Part shown: in pieces, positions 11,111 to 28,914 of the stretch | Layout: the number at the start of each line of letters is the position of its first letter | How positions within the stretch are numbered: position 1 is the stretch's first letter | IMG/VR virus record: IMGVR_UViG_3300027498_000009 | Coordinates: 1 to 36,028 of that record | Source: a virus | Reading direction: 5' to 3' (one strand) | DNA: 36,028 bases | The notes under the pieces: generated by a model | What the model saw: only the letters and a program-made list of their open reading frames with translations | Database searches by the model: none | What the model was told of the DNA's origin: nothing | Translations under genes and position numbers: made by a program

Positions 11111-11140
11111 CATTCAATTTTTCCCGCTGTGACCCGGCAC

Positions 11141-11458: not shown

Positions 11459-11460
11459 GC

Positions 11461-11740: not shown

Positions 11741-11752
11741 GGTGAGCAACAA

Positions 11753-11761: not shown

Positions 11762-11781
11762 AGCAATACAGGGAAGATTCT

Positions 11782-14285: not shown

Positions 14286-14731
14286 GCCAGCCAGGATGGG
14301 AGGGCGAGAAGGTTTTGGAGCCGAAGTGCAGTGATTGCGTTCATAGCGGAGTCCAAACGCTAATTGGCGGGGTTGTCCGCATTATGCCGCCGCCATTGAT
14401 GTGCGATTGGATGAAGAATAGAAACTACGGGGAGCCATGGGATCGCCGCTATGCGTGGGAAATGAGAGATGCTGACAACGATTTTTGTGGGCCGGATGGC
14501 AAGTGGTTCGAGCCCAAAACCAAACCTGCCCTTGAATGCGTGTCTCTGCGCCTGGTGATCACTCAAACGGTTCGGGGCGATTACATGGTTAAGATGAGCA
14601 ACGACGCAGCTGGTACGTCATCGAACACGGTCGAGCAGCGCTACACAAAAGCCATTGTGTCTGCCCTTGGATTTGCCGAGGAAGAATTGGCGCAGTGGAC
14701 TCACATGATGCAGATCAAGGGGAAGCTATGA
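14282..14731 (+). CDS. Hypothetical protein with N-terminal Cys motif
   Basis: A 149-residue protein. The first half has CSDCVHSG, then CDWMKN and DFCGPDGKWFEP, a four-Cys arrangement that could hold a metal; the second half is a separate domain with beta strands and a helical end. This C-x-x-C-x-x-x...C...CGPDGKWFEP layout is often seen in small phage proteins. ATGA overlap with the resolvase gene. Confidence 0.65.
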   Translation: MSQPGWEGEKVLEPKCSDCVHSGVQTLIGGVVRIMPPPLMCDWMKNRNYGEPWDRRYAWEMRDADNDFCGPDGKWFEPKTKPALECVSLRLVITQTVRGDYMVKMSNDAAGTSSNTVEQRYTKAIVSALGFAEEELAQWTHMMQIKGKL

Positions 14732-15213
14732 CGATCCTAATGATCGGCTGCGATCCTGGCATGACTGGCTACCTGGCGCTACTCGACAAAGACGCTCGAC
14801 TGCTCGACACCGCCAAGATGCCGCTAAAGCCCAAAGATCCCAAGCGCAAATCGAACCGGGTGGACCCGCACGGCCTGGGGATGATCGTGCAAAACTGGCG
14901 CAAGGCTTACGCAGGCGCACCCTGCTACGCCTGCATCGAGGATTTGCAGTTCATGCAGGGCGACAAGATGGGCGCGTTCAGTCTGATGAACATGGGCAGC
15001 GCGGCAGGCATTGCCGAGGGCGTGCTGACGATCATGTGTCGCGGCGTGATGATGGTTCCCCCGGCAAAGTGGAAGCGGGATCTTCGATTGAGCAAAGACA
15101 AGGCCGCATCGGTCGAGTTGGCGCACCGGCTGTTTAACAAAAATATGGGTCATGACCGTGCAGAGGCCGCGCTGATTGGGTATTACGGGCTCAGTCAGGG
15201 GATGGGACGGTAG
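14728..15213 (+). CDS. RuvC-like Holliday junction resolvase
   Basis: A 161-residue RNase H-fold nuclease. The N-terminal strand MIGCDPGMTGYLALL carries the first catalytic Asp (residue 9) in the D-P-G-x-x-x-T-G motif; E71 in ACIEDLQFMQG is the second; HDRAEAALIGYYG (D143, E146) supplies the C-terminal acidic residues, as in RuvC HDRAEAL. Length is close to RuvC (about 170). Its likely job is to cut branched intermediates made by exonuclease and Bet recombination before packaging. The ATG at 14728 overlaps the previous stop (ATGA); an upstream in-frame start is not needed. Confidence 0.9.
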   Translation: MTILMIGCDPGMTGYLALLDKDARLLDTAKMPLKPKDPKRKSNRVDPHGLGMIVQNWRKAYAGAPCYACIEDLQFMQGDKMGAFSLMNMGSAAGIAEGVLTIMCRGVMMVPPAKWKRDLRLSKDKAASVELAHRLFNKNMGHDRAEAALIGYYGLSQGMGR

Positions 15214-15505
15214 CCAATCTGGCACAATTGGCCCACGGCAACCACCGCAGGCCCATCCCCTGATCCGCAAGCCCCTAACACCGATTGACTGGTTTCGAGT
15301 CATCATCCAGCTAAACCGGGCTGGCAAATCGGTGTCGCTCATCGCCAGAGATACGGGCTTTCCAAACAGCACAGTGCGCTCATGGTGGGTCGGAATTGCC
15401 AACCCGCCACACGACAAAGGCGAAATCCTGCTGGCCTACTGGTCAGAGCACACGGGAAAATCGCAAGATCTTGCGCCACGGCTTCGCTATCCTGCGACTC
15501 GATAA
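15176..15505 (+). CDS. HTH protein, candidate late-gene regulator
   Basis: A 109-residue frame with a good helix-turn-helix: VSLIARDTGFPNSTVRSWWVG (residues 55-75), preceded by TPIDWFRVIIQLNRAGK. Start is uncertain: TTG at 15176 overlaps the resolvase gene by 38 bases, and no better in-frame ATG exists before the domain. Its coding end contains the first copy of the TCGCAAGATCTTG late-promoter element, so it may regulate its own downstream unit. No effector domain is visible. Could alternatively be a small terminase-type DNA-binding protein. Confidence 0.6.
   Translation: MGITGSVRGWDGSQSGTIGPRQPPQAHPLIRKPLTPIDWFRVIIQLNRAGKSVSLIARDTGFPNSTVRSWWVGIANPPHDKGEILLAYWSEHTGKSQDLAPRLRYPATR
15461..15493 (+). 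promoter_or_regulatory. Late promoter 1 (palindrome plus -10)
   Basis: TCGCAAGATCTTG at 15461-15473, part of the perfect 14-base palindrome CGCAAGATCTTGCG (15462-15475), then 14 bases, then TATCCT (15488-15493). The expected start is near 15500, 44 bases before the first ATG of the portal block. No normal -35 hexamer is present; the palindrome is in its place. Confidence 0.65.
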
Positions 15506-15543
15506 CCTCAGATTCCCCGTTAACGAGACCAGGAGCCACCCAC

Positions 15544-15909
15544 ATGGCCAAACGCAACGCTGTACCAGGCGAAACCATTGACGCGACCAACGAAAACGCA
15601 CCAGACGCCGCTGATGCGGTCGAGATGACTGCGGCTGTCGAGCACGATACCGCGTCAGAGGTCGAAGCCAATGACGACTTGAACACCGATCAGCTGGTGC
15701 AGATCCTATCCGAGCGCCTGGAAATGCAAGCCGACGAGATTGGCGAGCTTCGCGCAGAACTGCAACAGCTCAAGCTGGTGGTGATGAAGGTCAGCGCAGG
15801 CGTTCAGCGAGAACCAGAAGCGCCGCAGATGTCACGAGCAGAGGCCACCGAAAAGGCCAAGATGACCGGCAAAGCTCAACTATCCGTTGACGGCTACATC
15901 CAGCCCTAA
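15544..15909 (+). CDS. Acidic coiled-coil protein before the portal
   Basis: I start at the ATG at 15544 (MAKRNAVPGET) because AGGAG precedes it and it follows late promoter 1; a longer frame from 15382 would read through that promoter. 121 residues: disordered acidic N-terminal third, then a heptad-like helix (VQILSERLEMQADEIGELRAELQQLKLVVMKV) and a short C-terminal tail ending DGYIQP. Possibly a small structural or assembly protein; no homologue recognised. Confidence 0.65.
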   Translation: MAKRNAVPGETIDATNENAPDAADAVEMTAAVEHDTASEVEANDDLNTDQLVQILSERLEMQADEIGELRAELQQLKLVVMKVSAGVQREPEAPQMSRAEATEKAKMTGKAQLSVDGYIQP

Positions 15910-15923
15910 ACCGGGAGCTAGTT

Positions 15924-16130
15924 ATGTGCGGTAAGAAGCCGAGCCTTCCTGAAGTCGAGAAAGTCGATGTTGAGGCGCAGCAGCGCGATGCCGAGGTCAA
16001 GGCCAGTCAGCGAGCGCAGCAAGAGAACAGCCAGCGCCAGCAACGTCGGCGGCGCTCGTCTTTGGATCGGGGCCGGGGCTCAGCGTTAAGCCTTTATGGT
16101 GGTGGTAGCAGTTCATTGGGCGGACGTTGA
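15924..16130 (+). CDS. Small basic Gln/Arg-rich protein (MCGKK type)
   Basis: A 68-residue protein starting MCGKKPSLPEVEKVD and ending in a Gly/Ser/Leu tail (LYGGGSSSLGGR), with a highly charged Gln/Arg centre. Proteins with a similar MCG... start and glycine-rich end precede the portal in several podoviruses I recall. Stop and next start overlap as TGATG. Role unknown; possibly a minor head-tail component. Confidence 0.7.
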   Translation: MCGKKPSLPEVEKVDVEAQQRDAEVKASQRAQQENSQRQQRRRRSSLDRGRGSALSLYGGGSSSLGGR

Positions 16131-17755
16131 TGTATGACTCAAAATTAGCGGAGCGGATTTGCAAGCGCCAAGTGCGGCTTTCGGGTCTGCGCGGCCCGCA
16201 CGAGAACCGCTGGCGCGATGGGTTCAACTACTCATTCACCGAGCGAGCCGATGCGTTTTACGGCTCAAGCAACATGGTCAACAACGACCAGCACAAAAAA
16301 CCCAAGATCGTTGACTCGACTGGCCTTGATGCGTGCAAGACGCTATCGGCTGGCATCGTTGGGGCGATTGTCCCCAGCAATATGCAATGGTTTGATCTAA
16401 CCTCGGGCGATGATGACCAGATTGAGCACAACGATTGGTTGAGCGAATCGGGCCGGTTCATCTGGGAGAACATCCACGCGAGCAACTTTGACTCGACCGT
16501 GAACGACAACTTCCATGATGCCGTGGTCGCTGGTTGGTTCGTGCTGTACTGCGAAGAAGCCGAGGGCGGTGGGTTTAACTTTGAGTGGTGGCCGATAGGC
16601 GAATGTTTTGTCAGCGCTTCAAAGTCTGGCGGCATGATCGATACGATTTACCGCGAGATGACCAAGAGCGTCGAGCAGTGCGTCAACGAATACGGCCTTG
16701 AGAATGTCAGCAAGCAAACCCGCGAGCTGTACATGAAGGGGCCGGATCAGTGGGACAAAACGGTCGAGCTGCTTTACTGCATTGAGCCCCGCCAGCAGAA
16801 CAATCCAGATTCACCCTTCGCCAAAGATTTGCCATTTGCCGCGTACCACGTTGAGAAGGCCAACAAGCACATCTGTCGCGAGTCTGGCTATCACGAGTTC
16901 CCTTGCGCAGTGCCCCGCGTTCGTATCATTCCCAAAAGCCACTACGCCATCGGCCCGTATGACGATGCACTAGCCAACGTCAAGACGCTGCAAAGCCTGG
17001 GCAAAGATGAGATTCAGGCGAGCGAGCTGGCGGTAGGCGGGATCTGGAAAGCCAAAGACGATGGCGTGTTGAATCCGTCCACGGTTCGCATTGGCCCGCG
17101 TCGCGTCGTGATCGTTGCGGACATGGCGAATTTCGAGCGCATGGATACGTCCAACGGTCGGGGAGCGCAGCAAGGCTGGTCAACTAAGCAGGACTTGCAA
17201 CAGCAGATCCGCAAGCAGATGCGCACTGATCAGCTTGAGCCGCAGGACAAGCCGCAAATGACCGCCTATGAGGTCAGCGTGCGCGTGGCAATGATTCGGA
17301 CGCTGATCGGCCCGGAGTTCAATCGCTTTGAGAATGAATTCCTGGGCGTGATCGTTAAACGCTGCTTTGCTATTTCGATGCGGGCTGGCGTGCTGGGTGA
17401 TCCACCCGAAGGATTGGAAGCCTACTCGGTTGATTACACCTCACCATTGGCCAGGGCTCAAAAGCAAGAGGATGCCGAGGCTACCAAGATGTTTGTCGGT
17501 TACGTCAATGAGCAGGCGCAAGTCACGGGCGATACCTCAGTGCTCGACATTATCAACAAAGACAAAGCGAATCGGCATGTGGCGGACGGCACCAACGTTC
17601 CGACCGACATCCTCAACAGCCCAGATGAGATAGCCGAGATCCGCAAAACCCGAGAGCGCCAAGCGCAAGAGCAGGCCAAGCAAGAGGAACAGCAGCAGAT
17701 GCAGGTAATGGCGGCTGAGGGTGCAGCGAAACGCGCAGGAGCAATGGCACTATGA
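16130..17755 (+). CDS. Portal (head-tail connector) protein, T7 type
   Basis: A 541-residue protein (MYDSKLAERICKRQVRL...). Its N-terminal pattern R-L-SGLRGPHENRWRDGFNYSFTER, followed by DSTGLDACKTLSAGIVGAIVPSNMQWFDL, is typical of the T7-like head-tail connector family (DUF/PF12236-type). The C-terminal part has the RTLIGPEFNRFENEFLGVIVKRC helix and an Ala/Gln/Glu-rich tail (QEQAKQEEQQQMQVMA). Twelve copies form the ring through which DNA enters and leaves the capsid, docking the terminase. I use the ATG at 16130; TTG at 16127 adds one residue. Confidence 0.93.
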   Translation: MYDSKLAERICKRQVRLSGLRGPHENRWRDGFNYSFTERADAFYGSSNMVNNDQHKKPKIVDSTGLDACKTLSAGIVGAIVPSNMQWFDLTSGDDDQIEHNDWLSESGRFIWENIHASNFDSTVNDNFHDAVVAGWFVLYCEEAEGGGFNFEWWPIGECFVSASKSGGMIDTIYREMTKSVEQCVNEYGLENVSKQTRELYMKGPDQWDKTVELLYCIEPRQQNNPDSPFAKDLPFAAYHVEKANKHICRESGYHEFPCAVPRVRIIPKSHYAIGPYDDALANVKTLQSLGKDEIQASELAVGGIWKAKDDGVLNPSTVRIGPRRVVIVADMANFERMDTSNGRGAQQGWSTKQDLQQQIRKQMRTDQLEPQDKPQMTAYEVSVRVAMIRTLIGPEFNRFENEFLGVIVKRCFAISMRAGVLGDPPEGLEAYSVDYTSPLARAQKQEDAEATKMFVGYVNEQAQVTGDTSVLDIINKDKANRHVADGTNVPTDILNSPDEIAEIRKTRERQAQEQAKQEEQQQMQVMAAEGAAKRAGAMAL

Positions 17756-18276
17756 GTGGCGAAGTCGATGACGTGTTGCAAGCCGATGGATGGTTAGTCA
17801 GTGGGCTGGCGACTTCGGGATCTGCCAGCCTGCTAACTACCTCTGGCGAAATGAACGAGACGTTGACGGTTGATGGCTGGGATGTTGGCGATACGGGGAG
17901 CGGGACGATTGGCAAAGCCCGAATCCTCACCGCCAACCTGCTACCCGTCACCGCGCTATCAGAGTCAGGCGATGCGGTTGCAACGCACAGTGTTCCGAAT
18001 CTGCCTTCTGGCGTGACAGTGACGGGGTGGTCGTTGACGGCAGGTGACACGCAATTCAATCTGATTGACAACGGCGCTACTGCTGATGTAACGGTTGACG
18101 ATCTGACCGGCGTTAGCGCTGACACGAGCTACACGGTGCAAGCGACATTGAGCGCGGGTGATCCGTTGGTGCGAGTTGTGACCGTCACGTTTGCCGAGCC
18201 TGTTGGCTACGCATTGGAAGTTGAACCGGGCTTTGCGCTCGAAATTGAACCGGGCTTTGCCCTTGAGGTGGCGTAA
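17752..18276 (+). CDS. Beta-rich structural protein with C-terminal octapeptide repeats
   Basis: A 174-residue protein made of Thr/Val/Gly-rich strands, including TSYTVQATLSAGDPLVRVVTVTF near the C-terminus, which reads like one Ig-like or fibronectin-like beta-sandwich. The end consists of ALEVEPGF, ALEIEPGF, ALEVA, a tandem octapeptide. It follows the portal by ATGA overlap and precedes the tailspike by TAATG, so it is probably a virion component at the head-tail joint or a fibre base. No family recognised. Confidence 0.65.
   Translation: MSGEVDDVLQADGWLVSGLATSGSASLLTTSGEMNETLTVDGWDVGDTGSGTIGKARILTANLLPVTALSESGDAVATHSVPNLPSGVTVTGWSLTAGDTQFNLIDNGATADVTVDDLTGVSADTSYTVQATLSAGDPLVRVVTVTFAEPVGYALEVEPGFALEIEPGFALEVA
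18214..18270 (+). repeat. 24-base tandem repeat encoding an octapeptide
   Basis: TTGAACCGGGCTTTGC occurs at 18221-18236 and 18245-18260, with a 24-base period (eight residues, ALE[V/I]EPGF) and a third degenerate half-unit before the stop. The identical 16-base cores suggest recent unit duplication. Confidence 0.7.
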
Positions 18277-19892
18277 TGGCTATTACTGATGGAAATGGGG
18301 ATTTAGTCCCGTCAAAGAATCCGGCTTCAATATCGGCGGCAAATTGGGGCGCAGTTCGTGCTGCTATGAATCTGTTTCGAGACGCTTCGGAATGGGGCGT
18401 CACCTACGATTCATCAGTCGATTCATCAACTGAAGCGCAGGCAGCTATTGATGCCAACAAGGGCGGCTTTTTAGTCTTTTCAAAAGACTTCATGGCCAAA
18501 GACCTGAAGATGGACGACAGCACCTACAACGGCACGACCATTATCATGGAAGGCCGGATGTACTTAGCCGGTAACGGTAGCGCCAACACGCCGGGGCTTG
18601 CTGTACCAGCAGGACTATACATCGGGCCGGTTGCAGACGTGACGTTACACTTCAGAGGGCACGGCAACCGCTTAAACATGACAGTTCGGGAACAGATCAG
18701 CTTGCTTGTGCTGGCGGGTTGTACGAACCTAAATATTCCTGAGTTTGATGCTGTTGAATGTCGAGGCGATGGCGTCTACATGACGCACACGGGTTCAGGA
18801 TCATTAGGCGACTATTGTGATGGCGTTCACTTTGGAAGATTTAGGGCGGTCAACAGCGCAACAGATGGCCGCAACGGACTGACAATCATCACAGGCAAAA
18901 ATATTGTTGTTGATGATTACTATTCAAATCGGTTCGGACACTTGGTCGGCGGTGGTTCTATGCCTGGTGGTATTGACATTGAGCCAAACAATTTATATGA
19001 ACTTGTCGAAAATGTTCAGATTGGAAAGGCGTTTATTCGCACTGTTGGAACGGCTGGCTTTGCGGTTCATGGCCAGAGCAGCAAACTGACCGTCAATGTC
19101 ACTTGTGCAAATTTGGTGATTGAGAACTATGTAGACCCCTTTATTGACGATCAAAACAGCAATACCACGCAAGCATCCACAACGCGGTTAATCAGAGTCG
19201 CCAATGCTCGACAGGTAAAGATTAGTGCCGTGGGGCGGTTCATAAACGCCTACGGAGTGGGATTAGAAATTCAGGGGTCAGATGACTGCAATATTGCGTT
19301 GCAAGCCACCAAAGTTCACTACGGCCTCTATGCTGGTGGGGTTGCCGTTTACGGAGGGGCCAAGGACTGCGATCGTTGCCGACTTGATGTAGTCGCAACC
19401 GATGTATCCCGATATGGCGCATACGTTGCCAATCTCTTTGACTGCGTTGTTGCGGGCACGGTTAGTGATCCCAAGACAGCCTTTTACACCAATCGGTTTG
19501 GGGTTTACTGCGCTGAAACTTTAACTAGAACTCGGTTTGAAATGGGCGTTGAGTATTCTGCTGATTGGACTCGCGCCTATAGAAACGCTGCTGCAACCTA
19601 CACCAGCGTTGTCTTGAATGGTGTGGACCTATCAGCGTTCACGACTGTTAACAACCGGGTTGACGATACGGTAATGAAGCGAACGAACAGCCCTGGCGCT
19701 TCAGATGGAACAGCGCAGCCTAATGATGGTTCGTGGGTTCAGGGGCAGTTCTACCAAGACACTGCATCGTCAAAAACTGCGAATGGGAACATCAGAACAG
19801 GATGGCTGAGACTGACGACCGGTGCTGCCAATGTCGCGGGTACAGATTGGGAGCCGGTCTACCAGCCGACCACTGATGTCTCCCACGCTTGA
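18276..19892 (+). CDS. Tailspike / tail fibre with beta-helix domain
   Basis: A 538-residue protein. Residues 1-80 look like a head- or tail-binding region with GRVFVFSKDFMAKDL-type sequence; about 80-440 is a succession of short strands with Gly/Asn turns (for example GDGVYMTHTGSGSLGDYCDGVHFGRFRAVNS and KNIVVDDYYSNRFGHLVGGG), the style of a right-handed parallel beta-helix as in polysaccharide-degrading tailspikes. The C-terminal domain (about 465-538) contains GSWVQGQFYQDTASSK and TGWLRLTTGAANVAGTDWEPV. It probably binds or digests a surface polysaccharide of the host. I see no assignable catalytic residues. Confidence 0.7.
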   Translation: MAITDGNGDLVPSKNPASISAANWGAVRAAMNLFRDASEWGVTYDSSVDSSTEAQAAIDANKGGFLVFSKDFMAKDLKMDDSTYNGTTIIMEGRMYLAGNGSANTPGLAVPAGLYIGPVADVTLHFRGHGNRLNMTVREQISLLVLAGCTNLNIPEFDAVECRGDGVYMTHTGSGSLGDYCDGVHFGRFRAVNSATDGRNGLTIITGKNIVVDDYYSNRFGHLVGGGSMPGGIDIEPNNLYELVENVQIGKAFIRTVGTAGFAVHGQSSKLTVNVTCANLVIENYVDPFIDDQNSNTTQASTTRLIRVANARQVKISAVGRFINAYGVGLEIQGSDDCNIALQATKVHYGLYAGGVAVYGGAKDCDRCRLDVVATDVSRYGAYVANLFDCVVAGTVSDPKTAFYTNRFGVYCAETLTRTRFEMGVEYSADWTRAYRNAAATYTSVVLNGVDLSAFTTVNNRVDDTVMKRTNSPGASDGTAQPNDGSWVQGQFYQDTASSKTANGNIRTGWLRLTTGAANVAGTDWEPVYQPTTDVSHA

Positions 19893-20042
19893 TTATGACC
19901 CCCACACACCGGCACCCGGATGTTCAACGGCCATGACCCATTCCCCGGTTATTTGCGCGTCAGGCTTTCTATTGTTAAAAGCAAATTGCAAAAAACTATG
20001 AAAAACACCAACGGCTTGTCAGGGCGACAAGGTGATCGGCTA

Positions 20043-20414
20043 ATGATCCGATTCCTCTGTTTGCTGTGGCCTGGGGCGCTGGGTTACCTTGGCGCTTACA
20101 GTGCGGCTTCCAGCACTTCTCGCGTGTTCGCGTCGATTCCAAACGGTCAAGTGATTGGTGTTGCTATAGAAATATTGGCGGTCTTGTTATTGCTAGAAGT
20201 AACGTTGTTTCTGGTGGTGCCGGCGTGGCGGCGGTTCTGTCGAGCAAGTGGATTGCTTTATGTGTTTGCCGGGACAATTCCAATGTTTTTCGCAGTGCTT
20301 CTGCCCGCGTACTTAGACGTTAGAGATCCGATATCTCATGTTTATTTTCTGGCCGGGGTTTGCGTATCAGCAGCCGGCGTTCGGATTCTGTACGGGTCTC
20401 GGAATAATGAGTGA
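20043..20414 (+). CDS. Four-helix membrane protein of the lysis block
   Basis: A 123-residue protein. I choose the ATG at 20043 (MIRFLCLLWPG), with AGGTGA 7 bases upstream; an ATG at 19998 has no RBS. Hydrophobic segments at about 1-20, 38-59, 71-90 and 96-115 suggest four membrane passes. First gene of the block, 150 bases after the tailspike gene; that gap shows no clear element. It may be a holin or antiholin. Not recognised by family. Confidence 0.6.
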   Translation: MIRFLCLLWPGALGYLGAYSAASSTSRVFASIPNGQVIGVAIEILAVLLLLEVTLFLVVPAWRRFCRASGLLYVFAGTIPMFFAVLLPAYLDVRDPISHVYFLAGVCVSAAGVRILYGSRNNE

Positions 20415-20790
20415 AGCCACATCAGTGGTGTCGAAAGCCGGAGCGATTGCCGGCGGTATAACCGCTGCCACTTCCAAGGTAAGAACTGTTGTTGCACCAG
20501 AGCTTTGGGAATTGCCTTGGGAGTCTTTGCTTTTCGCGTCTGGCATTGCGGCGTTCTTCGGCGTGGTCAGCAGGTTGCGCAAAATCGAAGAAGGCTCTCT
20601 GGATTGGAGAAGCTTCTGGACGGCCGCAATCTCAGGCGGTTGCTCAGGTCTGATCGTCTCTGCTTTGATGCTGGGAAACAAAGCCGATCCGCTCTATGTG
20701 TTCGCCGCAATGGTTGTGTTCGGACTTTTAGGCGGTAAGGGTCTTGACTTGATTCTGAATCGCGGCGCTAAACAAGTAGAGGGCAAGTGA
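20407..20790 (+). CDS. Putative holin
   Basis: A 127-residue protein (MSEATSVVSKAGAIAGG...), ATG at 20407 overlapping the previous stop by eight bases. It has a helix at about 43-57, a charged loop (RKIEEGSLDW), and two further helices (about 70-90 and 95-112), then a basic C-terminus. Three hydrophobic segments with a basic tail fit class I phage holins, which form the timed hole in the inner membrane. The call rests on topology and on its place before other lysis-type genes. Confidence 0.6.
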   Translation: MSEATSVVSKAGAIAGGITAATSKVRTVVAPELWELPWESLLFASGIAAFFGVVSRLRKIEEGSLDWRSFWTAAISGGCSGLIVSALMLGNKADPLYVFAAMVVFGLLGGKGLDLILNRGAKQVEGK

Positions 20791-20930
20791 TGACACTCTT
20801 TCTATCTCTCGGCTTCGTCCTGATGTGCAGCCAGCCGATGCCAGGGGCTAAGCATGGTTTGTTGATGATCGACCACCCGATGCTGTTGCGCTATATCCCG
20901 TTGAAGGTCAAATGCAAAGGTGACGTTTGA
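20790..20930 (+). CDS. 46-residue secreted or lipoprotein-like small protein
   Basis: ATG overlaps the holin stop (TGATG); the stop overlaps the next start (TTGA). The product MTLFLSLGFVLMCSQPMPG... has a short hydrophobic N-terminus ending L-M-C, close to a lipobox though Met at -1 is unusual, and a Pro-containing sequence. A truncated outer-membrane spanin (Rz1-like) is possible; this is weak inference. No inner-membrane spanin partner is apparent. Confidence 0.5.
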   Translation: MTLFLSLGFVLMCSQPMPGAKHGLLMIDHPMLLRYIPLKVKCKGDV

Positions 20931-21349
20931 TCGTTCGACTACAACGCCTGATCAGCGGTTCACATGGGACGTTTGGCGTGTTGCGCGCCCCAGGCTGGAC
21001 GGCGCTCAGCATTGAATGTCCGTGGATAAATAATATTCGCAATGTGTCGTGCATTCCTGATGGGCAATATCGAGTGGTGATGTCTTACTCGCCCAAATTC
21101 CGGCGGCGCATGTATGAGATTCTTGACGTACCGGGGCGGTCGGGTATTCGCTTGCACGGCGGCAACTTAGCCGGAGACCGGACCAAAGGGCTTATTACTC
21201 ACTTCTCAGGTTGCATAGGGCTTGGCATCCGACAAGGTGTGTTGAGCAACCAGCGGGCAGTACTCATATCTCAAGCGACCGTCTCGACGTTTGAGAGTCT
21301 CATGCAGCACAAAGACTTTGACCTAATCATTGAGGGCGACCATGCTTGA
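20927..21349 (+). CDS. DUF5675 protein with YkuD-like His/Cys motif, candidate wall enzyme
   Basis: A 140-residue protein starting at TTG with four-base overlap. Order of motifs: FGVL, then CIPDGQYRVV (residues 42-51), GIRLHGGN (H77) and THFSGCIGLG (H92, S94, C96). This order and the P-G-Y / H-G / (S/T)H..SGCI signature match the active site of YkuD-type L,D-transpeptidases, except for a two-residue insertion before Gly-Cys. The family seems to be DUF5675, of unknown function. It lies in the lysis block where an endolysin is expected, so a peptidoglycan role is possible. The enzymatic role is inference. Confidence 0.65.
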   Translation: MIVRLQRLISGSHGTFGVLRAPGWTALSIECPWINNIRNVSCIPDGQYRVVMSYSPKFRRRMYEILDVPGRSGIRLHGGNLAGDRTKGLITHFSGCIGLGIRQGVLSNQRAVLISQATVSTFESLMQHKDFDLIIEGDHA

Positions 21350-21956
21350 ATCTCTCGCGGGAATTGCTACGGGTGGCTGGGGGCCGATTGTTGGGTCACT
21401 GGTTGGATTCGCTGGCGGCATCGTTAATAAGTTCATGGCTTACAAAGTTCGCAAGCTTGAGATTGCCGACAATGCCAATGCTCGCGCCCACGCCAAAGAT
21501 ATGGCCGTCATCAATTTCAATCGAGAGAAAGAGCTGACGACGCTTGAGATTGAAGGCCGCGCAAGACAGGCATCAATTGATGGTGAGATTGACATCGAGA
21601 AGATGGACTTGGGCAATCTGGGGATCTCGATTGGCGCAGACCGAGCCGCCTACCTGTCTGAAGACGCCCAGGCAAAGAGCAAAGTGGTGATGTACGCAAT
21701 GGCGGTGGTCGATTGGGTGCGCGGCATGACGCGGCCCGTGCTGACTATCTCGCTGATCTATGGCGCATGGCACATAAACATGCTGTTGATCGGATTTCTG
21801 GAGACGCTCAACAACGGCGGATTGCCGGTCAATGTCGTGATTCAACTCACGGTTATTTCAGTTGTCACTATTCTGACGCTGGCAACGACTGCTGTGGGTT
21901 ACTGGTTCGGCTCTCGTCCGACTGTGCTCAAGAAGCTGTCCGAGGTGATTAAGTGA
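21342..21956 (+). CDS. GTA-type three-TM holin-like protein
   Basis: A 204-residue protein; I use the ATG at 21342 (MLESLAGIATGGWGP), overlapping the previous stop by eight bases. It has an N-terminal hydrophobic stretch (about 8-30), a long charged helix (about 34-100, coiled-coil-like: KVRKLEIADNANARAHAKD), and two C-terminal membrane helices ending in AVGYWFGSRPT. The layout and the final WFGSR match the holin family described from gene transfer agents (GTA_holin_3TM). It likely contributes to membrane permeabilisation. A second holin-type gene sits upstream. Confidence 0.65.
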   Translation: MLESLAGIATGGWGPIVGSLVGFAGGIVNKFMAYKVRKLEIADNANARAHAKDMAVINFNREKELTTLEIEGRARQASIDGEIDIEKMDLGNLGISIGADRAAYLSEDAQAKSKVVMYAMAVVDWVRGMTRPVLTISLIYGAWHINMLLIGFLETLNNGGLPVNVVIQLTVISVVTILTLATTAVGYWFGSRPTVLKKLSEVIK

Positions 21957-22258
21957 CAGACAAGCAGACCGAGTACCCGTGCGGTCCGTCCTGGCTATGG
22001 TGGCGCATCCGCAAATGGATATCACCTAAATGGGCGTGCCCATGCTGCCGAGCGCATGACAAAGGCTACACAGGCCAAGGGGATCGCAAGCTAGTCGATG
22101 CTGAATTCCGCAAATGCCTGATGATTTCTGCATGGCAGACGGGCGGCAGTGAGGGCCACGCCAATCGAGAGTTGCGGGCGTTCTTAGCGGGCATGTCGGT
22201 GACGGCGTTTGGCTGGCTGTTCAAGCGCCCGCGTTGGTGGAACGATCTGGGCCGCTGA
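21953..22258 (+). CDS. Phospholipase A2-like protein
   Basis: A 101-residue protein starting GTG (ATGA-style GTGA overlap). Residues 29-39 read C-P-C-C-R-A-H-D-K-G-Y, the PLA2 active-site pattern C-x-x-H-D-x-x-Y with His35 and Asp36, followed by VDAEFRKC (D49, F52, C55), which matches the second helix of bacterial and fungal PLA2-type enzymes. The N-terminus YPCGPSWLWWRI and the C-terminus FGWLFKRPRWW are Trp-rich and could bind membranes. If active, it would hydrolyse membrane phospholipids at lysis. No signal peptide seen. The motif is clear, but activity is inferred. Confidence 0.65.
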   Translation: MTDKQTEYPCGPSWLWWRIRKWISPKWACPCCRAHDKGYTGQGDRKLVDAEFRKCLMISAWQTGGSEGHANRELRAFLAGMSVTAFGWLFKRPRWWNDLGR

Positions 22259-22264
22259 CCATTT

Positions 22265-22297
22265 TCGCAAGATCTTGAACCGCAGGGCGGGTTAAAT
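22265..22297 (+). promoter_or_regulatory. Late promoter 2 (palindrome plus -10)
   Basis: TCGCAAGATCTTG at 22265-22277, 14 bases, then TTAAAT (22292-22297); the core CAAGATCTTG is palindromic. It fills the gap between the phospholipase-like gene and the fibre gene, with the ATG at 22330, 33 bases after the hexamer. Confidence 0.6.
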
Positions 22298-22329
22298 GGC
22301 GGCATCCAACATCCACCGCGAGATTATCA

Positions 22330-25300
22330 ATGCCGATTAATGGGCAACCGTTTAAGGTCATCATGGCCACGGTATTTGACGACCCAAATCAGGCGGGCAT
22401 TCAGCCCTATCGACCCCCGTTGCCAAAGTACATGCTGGCGCTTGCGCATAATGATTTACCCAGCATCCCGGCTGCATACACCGCAGGGACTTATCCAATC
22501 CAGTTTGTAAACGGGCGCTGGGAAACAGAAAATCAGTTAGACATTACGACCCAAGACGCAATTAATGCCAAGGCCAGCTACGATGCCAAGCTGCCGCTGT
22601 GGTCGGTGCAGGGTGCGGTTACTGAGCTAATTGCCATTGATATTGAATGCTGGATGTTTCCGCCGTTCACTTTTGGCGCGGATCTGCAATACACCATTGA
22701 CAACATTGTGGACGCAGCACAAAAGCTGCAAGCCACATTGCAACAACCTCTAACCTTCTACAACCTGGGCCCCGCGTCCGGCTTAGTTGCGACCAAGCAA
22801 TACACTGCGCAAAACGACACGCTTGCGCCATTGCGGGGAGCCAATGACTTACTAATCCCGCAAATCAATCCGCACATTGCTGCATGGACGCCTAAGGCAT
22901 ACGCCGTTTACGACAGCGCAGATCAGACCACTAGCGACGCTGAATGGCAATGGTGGAAAGATTGGATTTCGTTTCAGGTTTCAGAAGCGCGTCGCTTGTC
23001 ACCCAATACGCCGATTTATCCTTATCTTTGGTGGGAATACGACCCGGTCGGAGATCAAGGGACAGGCACCGCAATTCCAATTAATCGGTGGCGAGAAATG
23101 CTCGACCACTGCTTATCTGTTGCTGACGGCGTAACAATCTGGGGCGGCGGTGCGGCAGAGTGGAGCGACTCAATGCCGTGGTGGGTCGAGCTACAGAGCT
23201 TTATGTCTGATAACGGTATAGACCAACCCAAGGAATCAAAAGTGCCATCATTTACTGCCGACACCGCCACCCTCAATGCCGTCATATCGGCGGCAGACAA
23301 TCCGGCCAAACGAGCGGCGGTCAATGCGGGGCTAGGCGAGGGCACACTGACCTTTGAGCTGGTCGCCCTGAACAGCATCATCACCGGCACATTCTCCGGC
23401 TCAGTTTGGGGTGATGCGGTGCTGGCTGTAGATAATGTGCAGCTTGCCAGCGTCGGCGGGCCAGGTGGGGCTGTAGCAGACGCCACGCGACTGACCGTTA
23501 CCAATGCAAGCGGGCGATTTGTTCGCTTCCCCCCTGGGGCGTATTCGTTTGTTGGCGCTGGCGGCTCGGACAACGTACAACCCGGCAATGAGATCCGGGT
23601 GACATTCCGATACGAACCTGATCCCGTAACGCCACCAGCAGACGATCTATACATCCCGGTTGCCGAGCTAATCGCTGGCATGGAAGAAGCCAGCACGTTA
23701 CAGCCCGCATTCGGTCAACACACCAACAATGAGGCGGTGATGCGGTCGCCAACCTATGATGCTGTTGTCGGCTACCTCGGGGCGGCCCCAGCAGGCCAAG
23801 ATGACTTTGATGACTTCGTTGAGGAAATTTACCCGTGGCCGTGGGCGTATCCGGCAACAGGGCATAACGTGGGCATCGGTTTACGGCTCGAGATGCGGCG
23901 GCTGAAAGTGTCGGCTTGTCGAAAGAGCACGGGGCAATGGCAAGACTTGCCCGAGTCAGGCTTAGGCCCAAACCTAGGCTGGAATGGCAACACGCAGACC
24001 GGCCCAAGCACCAAACTACGCAACGAAGCAGGCACCGGCAATTTATCTTTTGGGCCAACTACCATCAATGAAGGCGTGGAAGTCTGGCCGCCCGTTGAAA
24101 CCTACAAAGACAAAGCGTTATTCCGCGATACCAAAGCCTGGGGCATTGTGTTTCAGGCGCGGGTGATTGACGACAATGGCGACCCGTACAACGGCGCGGA
24201 TGGTCGCTTTGCTGTGCAGCTTGGATTTGACCAGTACGGGGGCAGAGAACGCGGCGGTGACGACAAGTATGCAGCGCCAGCCCGTTATCCTCGGACTCGC
24301 GCAGACGGCGGAAACAAGCGCTGGGATCTAGTAACAGGCGGCGACTGGACGACCATCGGCCTAATCACAATGGAATCGTTCAAGTTCAACGAGAATCCAC
24401 ATGCTGGCTACGTCCCGCCCTGGCCTTATGACCGCTCGCCTTATGTCCTCACCCGCCAGCAAGTGCTGGACAATCCGCCATCGTGGGCAACAGGGGGCGG
24501 CACATCAACCACTTCATCTATGTTCGGCGGTGTAGTCGATGCCGATCCAAACTATGTAGTCAGGCCACGGCCCGCCAATGCGGTGCGCGATCTGATGGTG
24601 GCAACGGACCCGGCATGGCTTTGCGGAGAATTCGCGACGGGTTGGCACCAATGGCTTGGCGTTAAACAAGGCGGTGTGACTTCTACGCATATGCGCCTTG
24701 TCGATTGGCGCGACAACGGCAACCCGGATGACGGTGGCATGTTCGTCGGCTCAGTCGTTAAGAGTCGGCACAACTACGAAACGGCGAGGATTGCCAGATG
24801 TGCAGCGCAGAGTAATGGGTGCCCCAAGATTCTGCCAATCTGGATGTTTCCCAAGTGGATGATTTCAGCGGCCAACATTGCAGAAGTTCAAGCGCGAGGC
24901 GGACAGGAAAATCAATTTGGGCAGATATTTAATATCACCCGATACCCGTCATTCCCTTATGGTGCACACCCGCCCGAAACGTGGGAGTACATCAAGGAGT
25001 ACGTGAGGGCGATCTATCGTCCCGTGTCTGAGTTGGGCCCAAATGGTGAGCCAGGACTAGGCTACACAAAAGACAATTGGCCAGTGCTTGAGCTGGGCAA
25101 CGAACAGAAGTTTGCCAGTCGCACTATCGGTGCGAGTCGTGCGTGGTTTGCGTCAAGCTCTGCTGTCAATACGCGCTGCTTTAATCTCATGACTATGCGT
25201 GAGATGAACGAAGGATTGAGAGCGCTGAAAGAAGTTGCACCGGCTGGTGTGTTGGTTGCTGCTGGCGGCTATGAAGGGGATTTCAACGGCAGTGTAGGCA

Positions 25301-25911
25301 AGACACTGGCCAATCCAAACGCTGAATACTCGTATTTCCAAGCGCAGATGCTGACCGATGACAATCACGGCGGACTTGGCATTGATCATGTCGACATTGT
25401 TTTTGCTCATCCGTATATGTACGCCTACAACCCAGAGCGCTCGCAAGTCGAGATTGACAATTGCAGAGCGCAAATCGAGTGGCTTGCCGCGCATTTGGGA
25501 AGGCCTGAAATTGCAGCGATACCATTGCATTGCAACGAAACCGGGCACGAGTCGCCAAGCGGAGTTGATAACACTTACGGCACCATCACGTATTTGATCA
25601 ATCAGCAAGGCGCAGCGTCCGCTTATGCCACCACTGCTCGCAACATGAAGCGGTCAGTTTTAATTTGGGTAGCCAATGGCTCAAAACAGAATTGCTTAGG
25701 CGGTAATCACTTTGTCGACCGTCCCTACGGAAACCCGCGTGATTCATATGGCGAGCGCCAGACTTACGGTGCCCCATCAGAAGTGCCCGAGCTGATCGCT
25801 GCAAACCAGTACGGCAATCAGGTGGTCAATAAAGTGGTGCGGCAAGCATACCAATTATCAGACGGGCAAATTGTTTGCTACTTTGAAGATGGCACAACCT
25901 TACAGGCATAA
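22330..25911 (+). CDS. Giant tail protein with two glycosidase-like domains
   Basis: An 1193-residue protein. N-terminal domain (about 1-300) reads as a TIM barrel: strand AIDIECWMFPP with a D-x-E pair (D104/E106), then PIYPYLWWEY and DGVTIWGGG, in the style of GH56 hyaluronidases. A linker (305-450) is beta-rich. The C-terminal half (about 880-1193) has WPVLELGNEQKF (acid/base candidate Glu925) and LHCNETGHES (nucleophile candidate Glu1070) about 145 residues apart, matching clan-A glycosidases such as GH39/GH5. It probably degrades host capsule or exopolysaccharide. GH family assignment is inferred by motif, and the folds would need confirmation. Confidence 0.65.
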   Translation: MPINGQPFKVIMATVFDDPNQAGIQPYRPPLPKYMLALAHNDLPSIPAAYTAGTYPIQFVNGRWETENQLDITTQDAINAKASYDAKLPLWSVQGAVTELIAIDIECWMFPPFTFGADLQYTIDNIVDAAQKLQATLQQPLTFYNLGPASGLVATKQYTAQNDTLAPLRGANDLLIPQINPHIAAWTPKAYAVYDSADQTTSDAEWQWWKDWISFQVSEARRLSPNTPIYPYLWWEYDPVGDQGTGTAIPINRWREMLDHCLSVADGVTIWGGGAAEWSDSMPWWVELQSFMSDNGIDQPKESKVPSFTADTATLNAVISAADNPAKRAAVNAGLGEGTLTFELVALNSIITGTFSGSVWGDAVLAVDNVQLASVGGPGGAVADATRLTVTNASGRFVRFPPGAYSFVGAGGSDNVQPGNEIRVTFRYEPDPVTPPADDLYIPVAELIAGMEEASTLQPAFGQHTNNEAVMRSPTYDAVVGYLGAAPAGQDDFDDFVEEIYPWPWAYPATGHNVGIGLRLEMRRLKVSACRKSTGQWQDLPESGLGPNLGWNGNTQTGPSTKLRNEAGTGNLSFGPTTINEGVEVWPPVETYKDKALFRDTKAWGIVFQARVIDDNGDPYNGADGRFAVQLGFDQYGGRERGGDDKYAAPARYPRTRADGGNKRWDLVTGGDWTTIGLITMESFKFNENPHAGYVPPWPYDRSPYVLTRQQVLDNPPSWATGGGTSTTSSMFGGVVDADPNYVVRPRPANAVRDLMVATDPAWLCGEFATGWHQWLGVKQGGVTSTHMRLVDWRDNGNPDDGGMFVGSVVKSRHNYETARIARCAAQSNGCPKILPIWMFPKWMISAANIAEVQARGGQENQFGQIFNITRYPSFPYGAHPPETWEYIKEYVRAIYRPVSELGPNGEPGLGYTKDNWPVLELGNEQKFASRTIGASRAWFASSSAVNTRCFNLMTMREMNEGLRALKEVAPAGVLVAAGGYEGDFNGSVGKTLANPNAEYSYFQAQMLTDDNHGGLGIDHVDIVFAHPYMYAYNPERSQVEIDNCRAQIEWLAAHLGRPEIAAIPLHCNETGHESPSGVDNTYGTITYLINQQGAASAYATTARNMKRSVLIWVANGSKQNCLGGNHFVDRPYGNPRDSYGERQTYGAPSEVPELIAANQYGNQVVNKVVRQAYQLSDGQIVCYFEDGTTLQA

Positions 25912-25913
25912 CA

Positions 25914-27545
25914 ATGGCTCAAGTAGCACTACAAGATTCGAGAGCGTCGACCTGGGATGGGGCGGCATTCAATACGACAATCACAACAGCGCCAGGGCTA
26001 GCGGGCGAACATCAGCTGATTGTCATGACACATTTTTCTGGCACTGTCGCTGCGCCTGAGTTAAGCGGCTGGCAAAAAGGTGGCACGGTCACTTTGGGCA
26101 GCAACAGCTTCACCGCTTACAAAAGAGTGTTGACGGCTGATGTCACCTCGGGCGGTGTGCAGGCGAGCTTTGCTCAGGCAGTCGAAGGTGAGGCATGGTG
26201 CGGCTCGTTCAATGGTGCTATTGGAACTATTACGCCATTCAACGTGCTTGAGTACACCGCCACCGCCAGACCCATTGGCGCAGTGACCGCACAAGCGGCG
26301 AACGCTTTGCAGTTGTTTGCGGGTGCGACAGATGCTTACCCGAGGCAAGCCGACCCATCGACTGGCTGGACAGAATCAAGCGACCGAGCGCAATACGCGG
26401 GCGCGGGCGGATTGGCCTTGCATGTCATGCACCGGCCTATTGGCGCAGGCGCTTCGGGTGCGTCGTCTTACGACATTCGATTGACAGATATAGACGGCGG
26501 CACTGGCGGCACTGGCGCAGGAACGCGCACGATGGCGCTCAACATTGCCATTGAAGAAATTGAGCAGACTAACGTTGCTACGTTTGATGTGCTGGCGGAA
26601 TTCCCGTCTATTGCGGTGACCGTCACCCCGGATCGCAACACGGTCACCGACAACGAAACCGCATCAATCAATGCAAACGTGGTTGGCTCAGACCAGGGCG
26701 TGACATACAGCATCGTCCAGGGCGTTGGAACAGTCACCGCGCAAGGTGTCGTCACACCAACAGAGCCAGGAACGATTACAGTGCGGGCGGCTAGTGTCGA
26801 AGCGCCCTCGGTGTTTGCTGACGCTGTGATTGATGTGCTGCCGGTCGTTCCGACAATCAATCCGGTGGCCGCGTCGGTGAGCCCAGCAGCGCTGAGCGGC
26901 ACTGCCGAGCCTAACGCCACGGTTCAACTGCAGATCTACGGCAACACGATCACGACAAGCGCCAACGGTTCGGGTCAGTGGGCCACCAATGTGGCATTGC
27001 CCCCTGGCGACTACGAGCTGTTAGCCACGCAAACCAAAAATGGCAAAACCAGTGGATCGGCCGGACCTGTCGCGGTGCAAGTGCTCGATGATGATGTGGG
27101 CGTAACCCTTGACCCGCCCGTCATGTATGCCATTGCAAGCGGTGAGGGCGACATCACGATTGCCGGCACCGGGGCAGTTGGTGCGACCGTGCGTCTCAGG
27201 TTAAACGGTGCTTTGCTGCCTAGCATGGCCACTGTGGATAGCAATGGCAATTGGAGCGTGCTGCTTTCGCTGCCCGTGGGTGGTTACAGTGTTGTCGCGT
27301 ATCAGGTCAAAGACTTGACGACCAGCAACGTCACCGAGCCCAAGCTGTTCAATGTTTACATTCCTGTTGCCCCGCCTGCCCCAACAGAATGGGGAGCCCG
27401 TCACAATGAAATGACCACGGACAAGCGCGGCGATCTACCAAAACCCCCTGTTACTGCCGATGAGTCGCTGGGGGTCGGCTCAGTCAAGACACCCTTTCGC
27501 ACCCCGAAAGCATGGCCAAAAAAAGGGATTCATAACAAGGAATAG
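25914..27545 (+). CDS. Ig-like domain virion protein
   Basis: A 543-residue protein. N-terminal domain (1-210) of beta strands; then three Ig-like domains: about 217-305 (VTVTPDRNTVTDNETASI...TITVRA, Big_2-like), 312-395 (SPAALSGTAEPNATVQLQIYG...NGSGQWATNVALPPGDYELLA) and 400-480 (AIASGEGDITIAGTGAVGATVRL...DSNGNWSVLLSLPVGGYSVVAY), the latter two being clear repeats of one another. The C-terminal 60 residues are Pro/Lys-rich. Such domains decorate phage capsids or fibres and bind carbohydrates. It lies two bases after the fibre gene; likely a fibre-associated or head-decoration protein. Confidence 0.65.
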   Translation: MAQVALQDSRASTWDGAAFNTTITTAPGLAGEHQLIVMTHFSGTVAAPELSGWQKGGTVTLGSNSFTAYKRVLTADVTSGGVQASFAQAVEGEAWCGSFNGAIGTITPFNVLEYTATARPIGAVTAQAANALQLFAGATDAYPRQADPSTGWTESSDRAQYAGAGGLALHVMHRPIGAGASGASSYDIRLTDIDGGTGGTGAGTRTMALNIAIEEIEQTNVATFDVLAEFPSIAVTVTPDRNTVTDNETASINANVVGSDQGVTYSIVQGVGTVTAQGVVTPTEPGTITVRAASVEAPSVFADAVIDVLPVVPTINPVAASVSPAALSGTAEPNATVQLQIYGNTITTSANGSGQWATNVALPPGDYELLATQTKNGKTSGSAGPVAVQVLDDDVGVTLDPPVMYAIASGEGDITIAGTGAVGATVRLRLNGALLPSMATVDSNGNWSVLLSLPVGGYSVVAYQVKDLTTSNVTEPKLFNVYIPVAPPAPTEWGARHNEMTTDKRGDLPKPPVTADESLGVGSVKTPFRTPKAWPKKGIHNKE

Positions 27546-27548
27546 GCG

Positions 27549-27818
27549 ATGGACGGCGAAGTAAACAGCGATGATGAAGCAGCCATTCCTACCGGGCTAT
27601 CCGACGAAGCCCAGCGCATGGCGCAGCTCTATCATCAGATTTTCGAGATAGACCAGCGCGGGGCGGCGGTGCTTGAAGATCTGATGAACCGCTTTAAAAG
27701 CCAGACGCCAGCGGTCGAGGGCGGCATTGATGCGGTGCTGACCACGTACCGGAATGCAGGCCGGACAGAGGTCATAGACTTCGTGATTCGGCGTATCAAC
27801 CAAGGGCGTGAACGCTAA
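27549..27818 (+). CDS. Bbp19-like small protein
   Basis: An 89-residue acidic helical protein; AQLYHQIFEIDQRGAAVLEDLMNRFKSQTP...AYRNAGRTEVIDFVIRRI resembles the small Bbp19-type proteins near capsid genes of BPP-1-like phages (Y/F-x-x-I/F-F...G-A-A-V-L-E-D-L). AAGGA precedes the ATG, and late promoter 3 lies just downstream. Role unknown; possibly head assembly. Confidence 0.65.
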   Translation: MDGEVNSDDEAAIPTGLSDEAQRMAQLYHQIFEIDQRGAAVLEDLMNRFKSQTPAVEGGIDAVLTTYRNAGRTEVIDFVIRRINQGRER

Positions 27819-27820
27819 TT

Positions 27821-27853
27821 TCGCAAGATCTTGCACAGGACACGCCCTATTAT
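27821..27853 (+). promoter_or_regulatory. Late promoter 3 (palindrome plus -10)
   Basis: TCGCAAGATCTTG at 27821-27833 (12-base palindrome GCAAGATCTTGC), 14 bases, then TATTAT (27848-27853), a strong -10. Expected start is near 27860, 23 bases before the scaffold ATG. It would drive scaffold and capsid genes. Confidence 0.7.
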
Positions 27854-27882
27854 CTGGCCCATATTGATAACCGGATAAGCCC

Positions 27883-28773
27883 ATGTTCATGCAAAACCTT
27901 CGCGCATACCTGTTCCAAGATGAAGCTGGCGACGGCACTGGCGCGGGCGAAGGTGGTGGCGGTGGTGATTCTGGGGATAGCGGCGAAAGCGCTGCACTCG
28001 ACAAAGGGTCGGCGGGCAGTGAAGGCGAAGGGGGTACGCCCGCCGACCAGGCAGCATCAAAGACAGAAACCGCGCTAAGCAAGAACGCATCGACCGAAGA
28101 TCCCTTTCACGGCACCCCGGAGAAGTACCGGGTGATGCGTGAGGATGGCTCCCTGGACGAGCAGGCGACGCTGGCAAAGACCGCGACCGCTTACAACGAT
28201 CTATCGAAAAAGATGGGTCAGGCCGATGGGGTTGCCCCAGCTGCACCAGGTGACTATGAGATCAACATGCCCGGCGAAATGGGCAAAGAGTTTGACCAAG
28301 AAGATCCCGGCTTCAAAGAATTTCTGACCAATGCGCACGCAGCTGGATTCACTCAGAAGCAGCTCGATACCACGATGGAAGCGTTCGGTAAGACCATCGG
28401 CAAGCTCACGGGTGACATTGCGATCCTCAATGAACAAGAGTGCAACGCACAGCTTGAGGAAGTCTGGAAAACGCCAGACGAGCGGGCTGCAAATTATCAG
28501 GCAGCATTCCGAGCGTTTGAGTCATTCTCGGGTGAGCGCTTCGACCAGATGCACGCTAAGTATGGCAACGATCCAGACATGATTTGGATGATGGCCGAAG
28601 TGGGTAAGCAGATGAAAGAGGGCTCGCCGCCACCGAATGGAGATGATCCGGTCAATACCGGGGGCGTCTCGATGACCGAGCTGGTCCGCGATCTGGGCAG
28701 CAAAGACAAGGCAGTACGTGAAAAGGCGCAGGCCGCATGGTCAAACCTATACGGACAGCCAGAAAAGCAGTAG
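27883..28773 (+). CDS. Head scaffolding protein
   Basis: A 296-residue acidic protein located directly before the major capsid gene. The N-terminal 85 residues are a disordered Gly/Asp/Ser/Glu stretch. It then has a conserved-type block FHGTPEKYRVMREDGSLDEQ and a long helical C-terminal half (FGKTIGKLTGDIAILNEQECNAQLEE). Acidic, helical, flexible proteins in this position are scaffolds that shape the prohead and then leave. The second ATG (27892) is also possible as start. Late promoter 3 lies just upstream. Confidence 0.8.
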   Translation: MFMQNLRAYLFQDEAGDGTGAGEGGGGGDSGDSGESAALDKGSAGSEGEGGTPADQAASKTETALSKNASTEDPFHGTPEKYRVMREDGSLDEQATLAKTATAYNDLSKKMGQADGVAPAAPGDYEINMPGEMGKEFDQEDPGFKEFLTNAHAAGFTQKQLDTTMEAFGKTIGKLTGDIAILNEQECNAQLEEVWKTPDERAANYQAAFRAFESFSGERFDQMHAKYGNDPDMIWMMAEVGKQMKEGSPPPNGDDPVNTGGVSMTELVRDLGSKDKAVREKAQAAWSNLYGQPEKQ

Positions 28774-28859
28774 CAATACACACTGGCCCGCGTGGCGGCG
28801 GACACCCAGTCAAAGCCCGACAGGCGCTGTCAGCAGTCGCAACAGCGTCGGAGTTTCCA

Positions 28860-28914
28860 GGCCCGGTATCGGACACCCTGTAAGCGGCTCCGTTAATACT
28901 TTGGAGTTACCACA
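28860..28914 (+). promoter_or_regulatory. Capsid gene leader (shared leader module)
   Basis: GGCCCGGT at 28860-28867 and TTTGGAGTTA at 28900-28909, then CAATGGCAG. The same arrangement precedes the cement-like gene. TTGGAG is the ribosome-binding site. The preceding 28774-28859 bases hold small inverted repeats, such as GACAG-GCG-CTGTC, but no terminator. Confidence 0.55.

Follow-up and report, generated by a model that had tools for sequence, protein, structure and literature searches.

How does a phage switch on several blocks of late genes together when the putative promoters in front of them have no -35 element, and which protein would do it? The question is raised by the virus record IMGVR_UViG_3300027498_000009, analysed here as a whole (36,028 bases; the window). 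A scan of the window finds three exact copies of a 13-base element, TCGCAAGATCTTG, at 15461-15473, 22265-22277 and 27821-27833, all on the plus strand, and after 14 further bases each is followed by a -10-like hexamer (TATCCT, TTAAAT and TATTAT, respectively). Our reading, which comparison with related phages makes probable, is that a small helix-turn-helix (HTH) protein, P0001, encoded next to the first copy, regulates the late genes by binding the inverted repeats (dyads) at these sites as a homodimer, most likely as an activator that replaces the -35 element, and that sites and regulators have drifted together in the course of evolution.

The repeated element in the window

The three identical copies with a hexamer 14 bases on had been described in an earlier note made from the letters alone, and that description stands: the compound pattern TCGCAAGATCTTG-N14-TNNNNT matches only those three places in the window and had 0 matches in 100 dinucleotide shuffles. 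The same note had put the chance expectation of three exact copies far below one; a threefold 13-mer as such is not extremely rare, since some 13-mer is present three times in 3 of 100 third-order Markov resamplings. The strength of the repeat lies in its strand, spacing and context rather than in the rarity of a threefold 13-mer. The features concerned are as follows.

15462 to 15475, plus strand: dyad 1, CGCAAGATCTTGCG, a perfect 14-base-pair (bp) palindrome that shares bases with the 3' end of the HTH gene and precedes the portal block, in the position of copy 1 of the relatives
15457 to 15461, plus strand: A/T tract AAAAT, a possible proximal UP element just 5' of dyad 1; relatives are A/T-rich at the same offsets
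15488 to 15493, plus strand: -10-like hexamer TATCCT of putative late promoter 1, at offset 21 from the dyad core; predicted start about 15500
22266 to 22279, plus strand: dyad 2, CGCAAGATCTTGAA, with a degenerate right arm, in a 71-bp intergenic gap upstream of the open reading frame (ORF) 22330-25911
22292 to 22297, plus strand: -10-like hexamer TTAAAT of putative late promoter 2; predicted start about 22304
27822 to 27835, plus strand: dyad 3, CGCAAGATCTTGCA, within the 64 bp of intergenic DNA that precede the scaffold/protease gene
27848 to 27853, plus strand: -10-like hexamer TATTAT of putative late promoter 3; predicted start about 27860
29400 to 29412, plus strand: one-mismatch copy without a -10, inside the capsid ORF

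The palindrome has its full 14 bp only at copy 1 and is reduced to 12 and 10 bp at copies 3 and 2. From the end of the hexamer to the next start codon we measured 51, 33 and 30 bases for copies 1, 2 and 3, which corrects the range of 33-51 bases first given. The claim that there is no -35 hexamer and that the palindrome occupies its place was borne out: the best TTGACA match is 2/6 at all three sites (spacers 16-18), and, judged by the position of the hexamer, the dyad axis falls at about -31.5. A sigma-70 consensus scan of 15200-29000 detected none of the three sites and returned 3 matches as against 8.4 in shuffles. The A/T bases directly 5' of the dyads are AAAAT, ATTTT and AATTT at copies 1, 2 and 3. 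The fourth, partial copy at 29400 in the capsid gene differs by one mismatch and has no hexamer, just as had been reported, and it is probably not a promoter.

The same layout, with other letters, in related phages

The nearest annotated relatives of the window are temperate short-tailed phages, for example Yersinia phage YeP5, Alcaligenes phage Piluca and Acinetobacter phages, the best of them with 37-45% protein identity over portal or capsid. Megablast against phages gave no match, and the portal as a single query retrieved no relative from IMG/VR. Capsid relatives were collected from IMG/VR and GTDB, giving a set of 307 sequences that includes the window, is redundant and has partly repeated contigs; the 45 protein/dyad pairs used below are non-redundant. 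The 12-base core CGCAAGATCTTG is absent from the 307 other loci that were fetched; its four matches lie in three excerpts of the window and in L004. The latter, the only IMG/VR contig with TCGCAAGATCTTG-N14-TATNNT, was rejected as a chance match in an unrelated A/T-rich stretch that reads as coding. The earlier note had looked to related phages for the element at the same places. Its exact letters are missing there, but its position and architecture persist at the late blocks of the relatives, and the absence of the letters is misleading as a refutation because they differ in every relative while the architecture persists. YeP5, for instance, has its own 13-mer three times, intergenic and on the late strand.

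An HTH ORF lies upstream of the capsid gene in 220 of the 307 sequences. When the end of the HTH gene was compared with the rest of its locus, the longest exact repeats on the coding strand exceeded those on the opposite strand in 48 of 67 loci and fell short of them in 12. In a controlled test with 55 non-redundant loci (capsid DNA clusters at 90%), we searched for a 14-bp dyad, at least 13/14 identical and with at least 8/10 arm pairs, common to the HTH stop region and the region upstream of the capsid; it was present in 25 of the 55 loci, as against one when the second region was reverse-complemented and none when it was taken from a different locus. The window counts as a miss in this test, its third dyad lying just outside the searched region, and is found with the wider region of the larger set. 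In that larger, redundant set a dyad pair occurs in 135 of the 220 loci, with 28 distinct dyad pairs, and a looser rule finds one in 31 of the other 85. The placement of the dyads is also conserved: of the 135 loci, 72 have the start of the first dyad 0-19 bases beyond the HTH stop codon and 28 have it, as in the window, within the last 50 bases of the HTH gene, while the second copy stands 180-199 bases upstream of the capsid match in 108. The GATC at the centre of the palindrome, on which the earlier note had laid weight, turns out to be incidental, the centre being GA[AT]N in relatives; nothing therefore points to Dam methylation, and this explanation of the GATC was rejected.

For the anatomy of the promoters, offsets were measured at 90 sites with the GA[AT]N core (its first base) as origin, a hexamer being TANNNT or NAYAHT and offsets 8-69 being tested. 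The hexamer stands at offset 22 in 45 of the sites and at 21 in 12 (57/90 together), no other offset having more than four sites; all three window hexamers are at 21. The distance from dyad to -10 is 12 bp in the window and 13 bp (offset 22) in most relatives. At the 57 hexamer-bearing sites the best TTGACA match is 2/6 in 45 and 3/6 in 12, an extended TG is present in one, and four A/T bases lie directly 5' of the dyad in 29. Several comparative tests on sequence thus support the layout (dyad, spacing and -10-like hexamer) and its place in these genomes. They also lend support to the earlier suggestion of a phage-specific late regulon bound at the palindrome, for which a candidate binding protein can now be named.

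P0001 and its covariation with the dyad

15176 to 15505, plus strand: HTH protein P0001, candidate late-gene regulator, 109 amino acids if started at TTG 15176; PHROG 16553, covariation and AlphaFold2 model

The gene that adjoins the first dyad encodes a 60-residue HTH domain at about residues 36-95. P0001 matches PHROG 16553 (E 1.1e-10), as do 26 of 26 aligned relatives, and no Pfam family above the cut-off. In the AlphaFold2 model the block means reach 95-98 pLDDT (predicted local distance difference test) over residues 41-100, with helices at 39-48, 53-60, 64-72 and 79-93; residues 64-72 (NSTVRSWWV) are the predicted recognition helix. The closest solved folds among those compared are Xre/lambda-repressor-like, with VIA-align Z of 9.1 for CylR2, 8.6 for C.Esp1396I and 7.9 for P22 c2. 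Although Z is up to 9.1 over 66 residues, Foldseek E is above 0.1, which makes the lambda-repressor/Xre-like fold call a weak one; against solved structures Foldseek gave no match reaching E 0.001.

Among phages, BcepC6B (L112) is the single tblastn match of P0001. A homologue in an E. coli prophage, WP_015365933.1, is annotated as a hypothetical protein, and dyads are found at the 3' end of its gene and upstream of the capsid; a related region is present in 3 of 5,426 complete E. coli genomes. Weak terminase HTH matches in some relatives prompted the idea of binding by a terminase small subunit (pac), which was rejected, as the sites lie at several late starts with a -10.

Covariation was computed by mutual information (MI) between the HTH domain and the majority half-site in the 45 non-redundant pairs, drawn from 131 loci, with all domain columns set against all variable half-site positions; L065, L164, L133 and L207 were left out because their register differs from the core. 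The top pair is column 35 with half-site base 2 (z 6.85) and the second column 36 with base 5 (z 5.25). Without the window the former is still first (z 6.08), and when the divergent L018 and L019 are dropped along with it the two pairs again come first (z 6.73) and second (5.89). In P0001 these two columns are Arg68 and Ser69, respectively; the covarying residues S65, R68 and S69 stand at positions 2, 5 and 6 within the helix predicted to be the recognition helix.

Where base 2 is T (28 pairs), column 35 is aliphatic in 22 (I 12, L 7, M 2, V 1), the others being W 2, Q 2, F 1 and H 1. With A at base 2 the residues are Q 2 and D 1; with C they are E 3, Q 2, T 2, R 1 and D 1; and with G they are R 3, G 1 and T 1, the window included, where Arg68 goes with G. 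At column 36, A at base 5 is accompanied by S 4 and G 1, and G by G 31, D 4, N 2, S 1, C 1 and R 1. In disjoint nearest pairs, column 35 differs in 12 of 13 that are unlike at base 2 vs 7 of 18 that are alike, and no other column shows a larger excess. When the comparison is confined to pairs with 55% identity or more, a difference between half-sites goes most strongly with change in columns 32, 36 and 35, which all belong to the recognition helix. A natural contrast is offered by two domains that are 86% identical: L062 has GCCGAGA with QS and L069 has GTCGGGA with MG. The link between column 35 and base 2, as judged from these alignments, is solid and that between column 36 and base 5 suggestive, because the former holds in the dropped-row and disjoint-pair tests and the latter less so. 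Such covariation suggests that P0001 itself would bind the dyad.

Proposed activation and its alternatives

We propose that each 14-bp dyad (arms CGCAAGA and TCTTGCG in the window) would be the site of one P0001 homodimer. P0001, as the last gene before the late genes, would be the last product of the early rightward gene set. With the dyad axis at about -31.5, in the position otherwise taken by a -35 element, and a weak -10 following after 12 bp, the promoters would be nearly silent until P0001 binds, as is to be expected of promoters without a -35; once bound, the protein would assist the host RNA polymerase in promoter opening. In this way the portal, ORF-22330 and scaffold/capsid blocks would be switched on together; in other phages of the group, regulator and site would have drifted together into specific pairs.

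Gene position, the missing -35 and analogy all point to activation. The best surviving alternative, which we nevertheless consider unlikely, is that P0001, while binding the dyads, acts as a repressor of the late promoters, for instance in a lysogen or at an early stage of infection. A dyad over the -35 region is in the usual place for a repressor, PHROG 16553 is labelled transcriptional repressor, and the predicted fold of P0001 resembles lambda-repressor/Xre proteins. There would, however, be little to repress. Activation is favoured because a promoter that lacks a -35 and has a poor -10 calls for assistance, not restraint, and because the P0001 gene, the last of the early rightward set, abuts the first late promoter, which is the place of lambda Q and the one expected for an activator or a Q-like factor. 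It is further favoured because late expression in well-studied phages is always under positive control, as stated in the part of PMC10695390 that deals with them.

A number of points weigh against our reading of P0001 as an activator acting on the dyads, the repressor label of its family being one. The hexamer is a weaker feature in front of the capsid, where 19 of 45 sites have it, than behind the HTH gene, where 38 of 45 do, and its NAYAHT pattern is post hoc, derived from largely the same sites, with positional sharpness as the control. Under either rule, 54 of the 220 loci with HTH and capsid have no dyad pair; ten of these are of the Acinetobacter/Alcaligenes type, with a longer HTH protein and a non-palindromic repeat, ACACCCAACAAA, and this branch is outside the dyad/HTH model. 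Window promoters 2 and 3 do not stand at the second place of the relatives, between scaffold and capsid: promoter 3 precedes the scaffold gene, and promoter 2 is within a block that the relatives lack. The MI z-scores come from shuffles that ignore phylogeny. Dropping the window alone removes column 36 with base 5 from the eight highest-ranked links, and in the disjoint pairs for base 5 column 36 differs in 3 of 4 unlike vs 6 of 19 alike, which makes it the sixth column. Lastly, the start of the HTH protein is uncertain, the gene overlapping the end of a resolvase-like ORF (14695-15213) and TTG 15176 being the sole standard start before the domain.

As to the Acinetobacter/Alcaligenes branch itself, ACACCCAACAAA occurs on the late strand before late genes in L008 (6, 22690 and 24199), L011 (4144, 5435 and 17299), L012 (1931) and L009 (20850, minus), and a variant, TCACCCAACAAA, at L008 19458. 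At these sites in the Alcaligenes and Acinetobacter phages neither a palindrome nor a fixed -10 was seen; a terminator-like hairpin then follows at L008 24199 and L011 5435.

It is very improbable that the repeat is an RNA hairpin in a long late transcript, be it a nut/put-like antitermination site or a processing site. In some relatives the element does resemble a stem closed by a four-base loop, and several loci have a terminator-like hairpin before it. However, the fixed spacing to the -10-like hexamer would leave the dyad untranscribed, because the hexamer is downstream of it, and the covariation is with the recognition helix of a DNA-binding fold. Moreover, in 30 distinct strict dyads none of the 14 non-Watson-Crick arm positions is G-T, and in the looser set 5 of 29 are, about the chance share; the strict set speaks for a site in double-stranded DNA rather than in RNA. 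In lambda-type N/Q antitermination the site works in RNA or, alternatively, at a full promoter with pausing; the -10 spacing and the lack of G-T pairs argue against the RNA form here.

There is a similarly slight chance that some other protein, a host factor or another phage regulator, binds the dyad and that the link with the HTH protein reflects shared descent. All HTH columns share one tree with the sites, and several columns outside the helix also have z above 4 (columns 55, 57). Yet the top-ranked column is in the recognition helix and is still top without the window, near-identical proteins with different dyads differ in the helix, and the dyad changes between closely related phages, which is not predicted for a shared host factor. 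Finally, it is scarcely credible that the repeats serve recombination, as short linkers where modules meet, and have no role in transcription. One window copy does lie inside, and one just behind, the 9.8-kilobase (kb) block between portal and Bbp19-like gene that is missing from relatives, but a linker would have no need of a palindrome, of a -10 at constant spacing or of covariation with a protein. Stoperator-like sites, as in mycobacteriophage L5, were set aside, as the sites are few and each has a -10.

Genes around the sites

15544 to 15909, plus strand: first ORF of the portal block
16127 to 17755, plus strand: portal (head-tail connector), PHROG 332, PF12236
22330 to 25911, plus strand: large ORF of 1193 amino acids, first gene after promoter 2, fibre-like by size only
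27883 to 28773, plus strand: scaffold/protease-like gene after promoter 3, PHROGs 3742 and 458
28915 to 29790, plus strand: major capsid protein, PHROG 3437 (E 1.6e-75)

The names first given to the late blocks hold for the portal (PF12236) and for the scaffold/protease and capsid (PHROGs 3742, 458 and 3437); the "fibre" at 22330-25911 has no match in PHROGs, Pfam or PDB sequences. About 9.8 kb at 17752-27545, with a holin-like gene, DUF5675 and large ORFs, separates the portal from the Bbp19-like gene (27549-27818). In the E. coli prophage L311 these two genes are neighbours; the block that parts them in the window contains putative promoter 2.

Two other regions may be mentioned. The leader of the capsid gene contains two hairpins, 28782-28810 and 28858-28880, with the common frame GGCCCG...CGGACACCC. 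Hairpins of this kind gave 49 matches upstream of capsids in relatives, 46 of them with the outer two bases fully complementary, in 7 stem types, which suggests a conserved RNA element; in the window they have no Rfam match. Between a Cro-like ORF and the replication genes there is a long stretch without a likely gene (11040-11780), in which the RNA fold of 11330-11780 has a z of -2.1 and 11040-11094 gives a weak, below-threshold match to Proteo-phage-1 RNA.

What the system may mean

The arrangement is likely to be the late-gene switch of widespread short-tailed temperate phages and prophages of Gram-negative bacteria, whose regulator is still annotated as hypothetical, and it makes late promoters predictable from sequence in these phages and prophages. 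With site and protein changing in step in many lineages, the family amounts to a natural experiment in the evolution of DNA-binding specificity, and to a possible source of orthogonal promoters. More tentatively, and at somewhat less than even chances, one small HTH protein alone may replace sigma -35 recognition (single-protein sigma appropriation) and have diversified into orthogonal pairs with a simple code, in which helix residue 5 would specify base 2 (aliphatic-T, Gln-A, Glu-C, Arg-G) and residue 6 base 5 (Gly-G, Ser-A).

Comparison with known systems

Searches of the open-licence literature found no description of these late promoters or of this regulator, and the papers listed for the motif strings are, by title, on other subjects. 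In phage P1, 11 late promoters carry a 9-bp inverted repeat to which the activator Lpa binds, according to the section of PMC10695390 on that phage. The resemblance is one of layout, late promoters sharing an inverted repeat, as do 3/3 sites in the window. The P1 repeat is centred near -22, and SspA is needed. Unlike this 9-bp repeat, the window dyad has 14 bp and its axis near -31.5.

The T4 MotA/AsiA system has nearly the same geometry. In T4 middle promoters the MotA box stands in for the -35, with its centre at -30 and the -10 following 12 +/- 1 bp downstream; it is not a palindrome, and MotA acts as a monomer (from the account of these promoters in PMC2988021). The corresponding distance here is 12 bp in the window and 13 bp in most relatives, likewise with no -35, whereas the site, unlike the MotA box, is a 14-bp dyad. 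Phage Mu has, in Mor and C, dimeric activators with a dyad at middle or late promoters, C serving four late promoters (as outlined in part of PMC4461284). The Mor element is centred at -43.5 (as given in the pertinent part of PMC4390567), unlike the window axis near -31.5, and for 26 HTH proteins the Mor family was not among the Pfam families listed with E up to 0.1.

The C proteins of restriction-modification systems and the lambda/P22-type repressors have a similar predicted fold, but the fold is a common one and sequence identity is about 10-14%. By sequence P0001 belongs to PHROG 16553, whose repressor label is an annotation and for which a role as late activator would be new. Homology to P1 Lpa, T4 MotA or Mu Mor/C is not implied, the likeness being one of promoter layout. 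The mechanism proposed here would be of a known kind, that of P1 Lpa and T4 MotA, in the hands of an apparently undescribed family of regulators.

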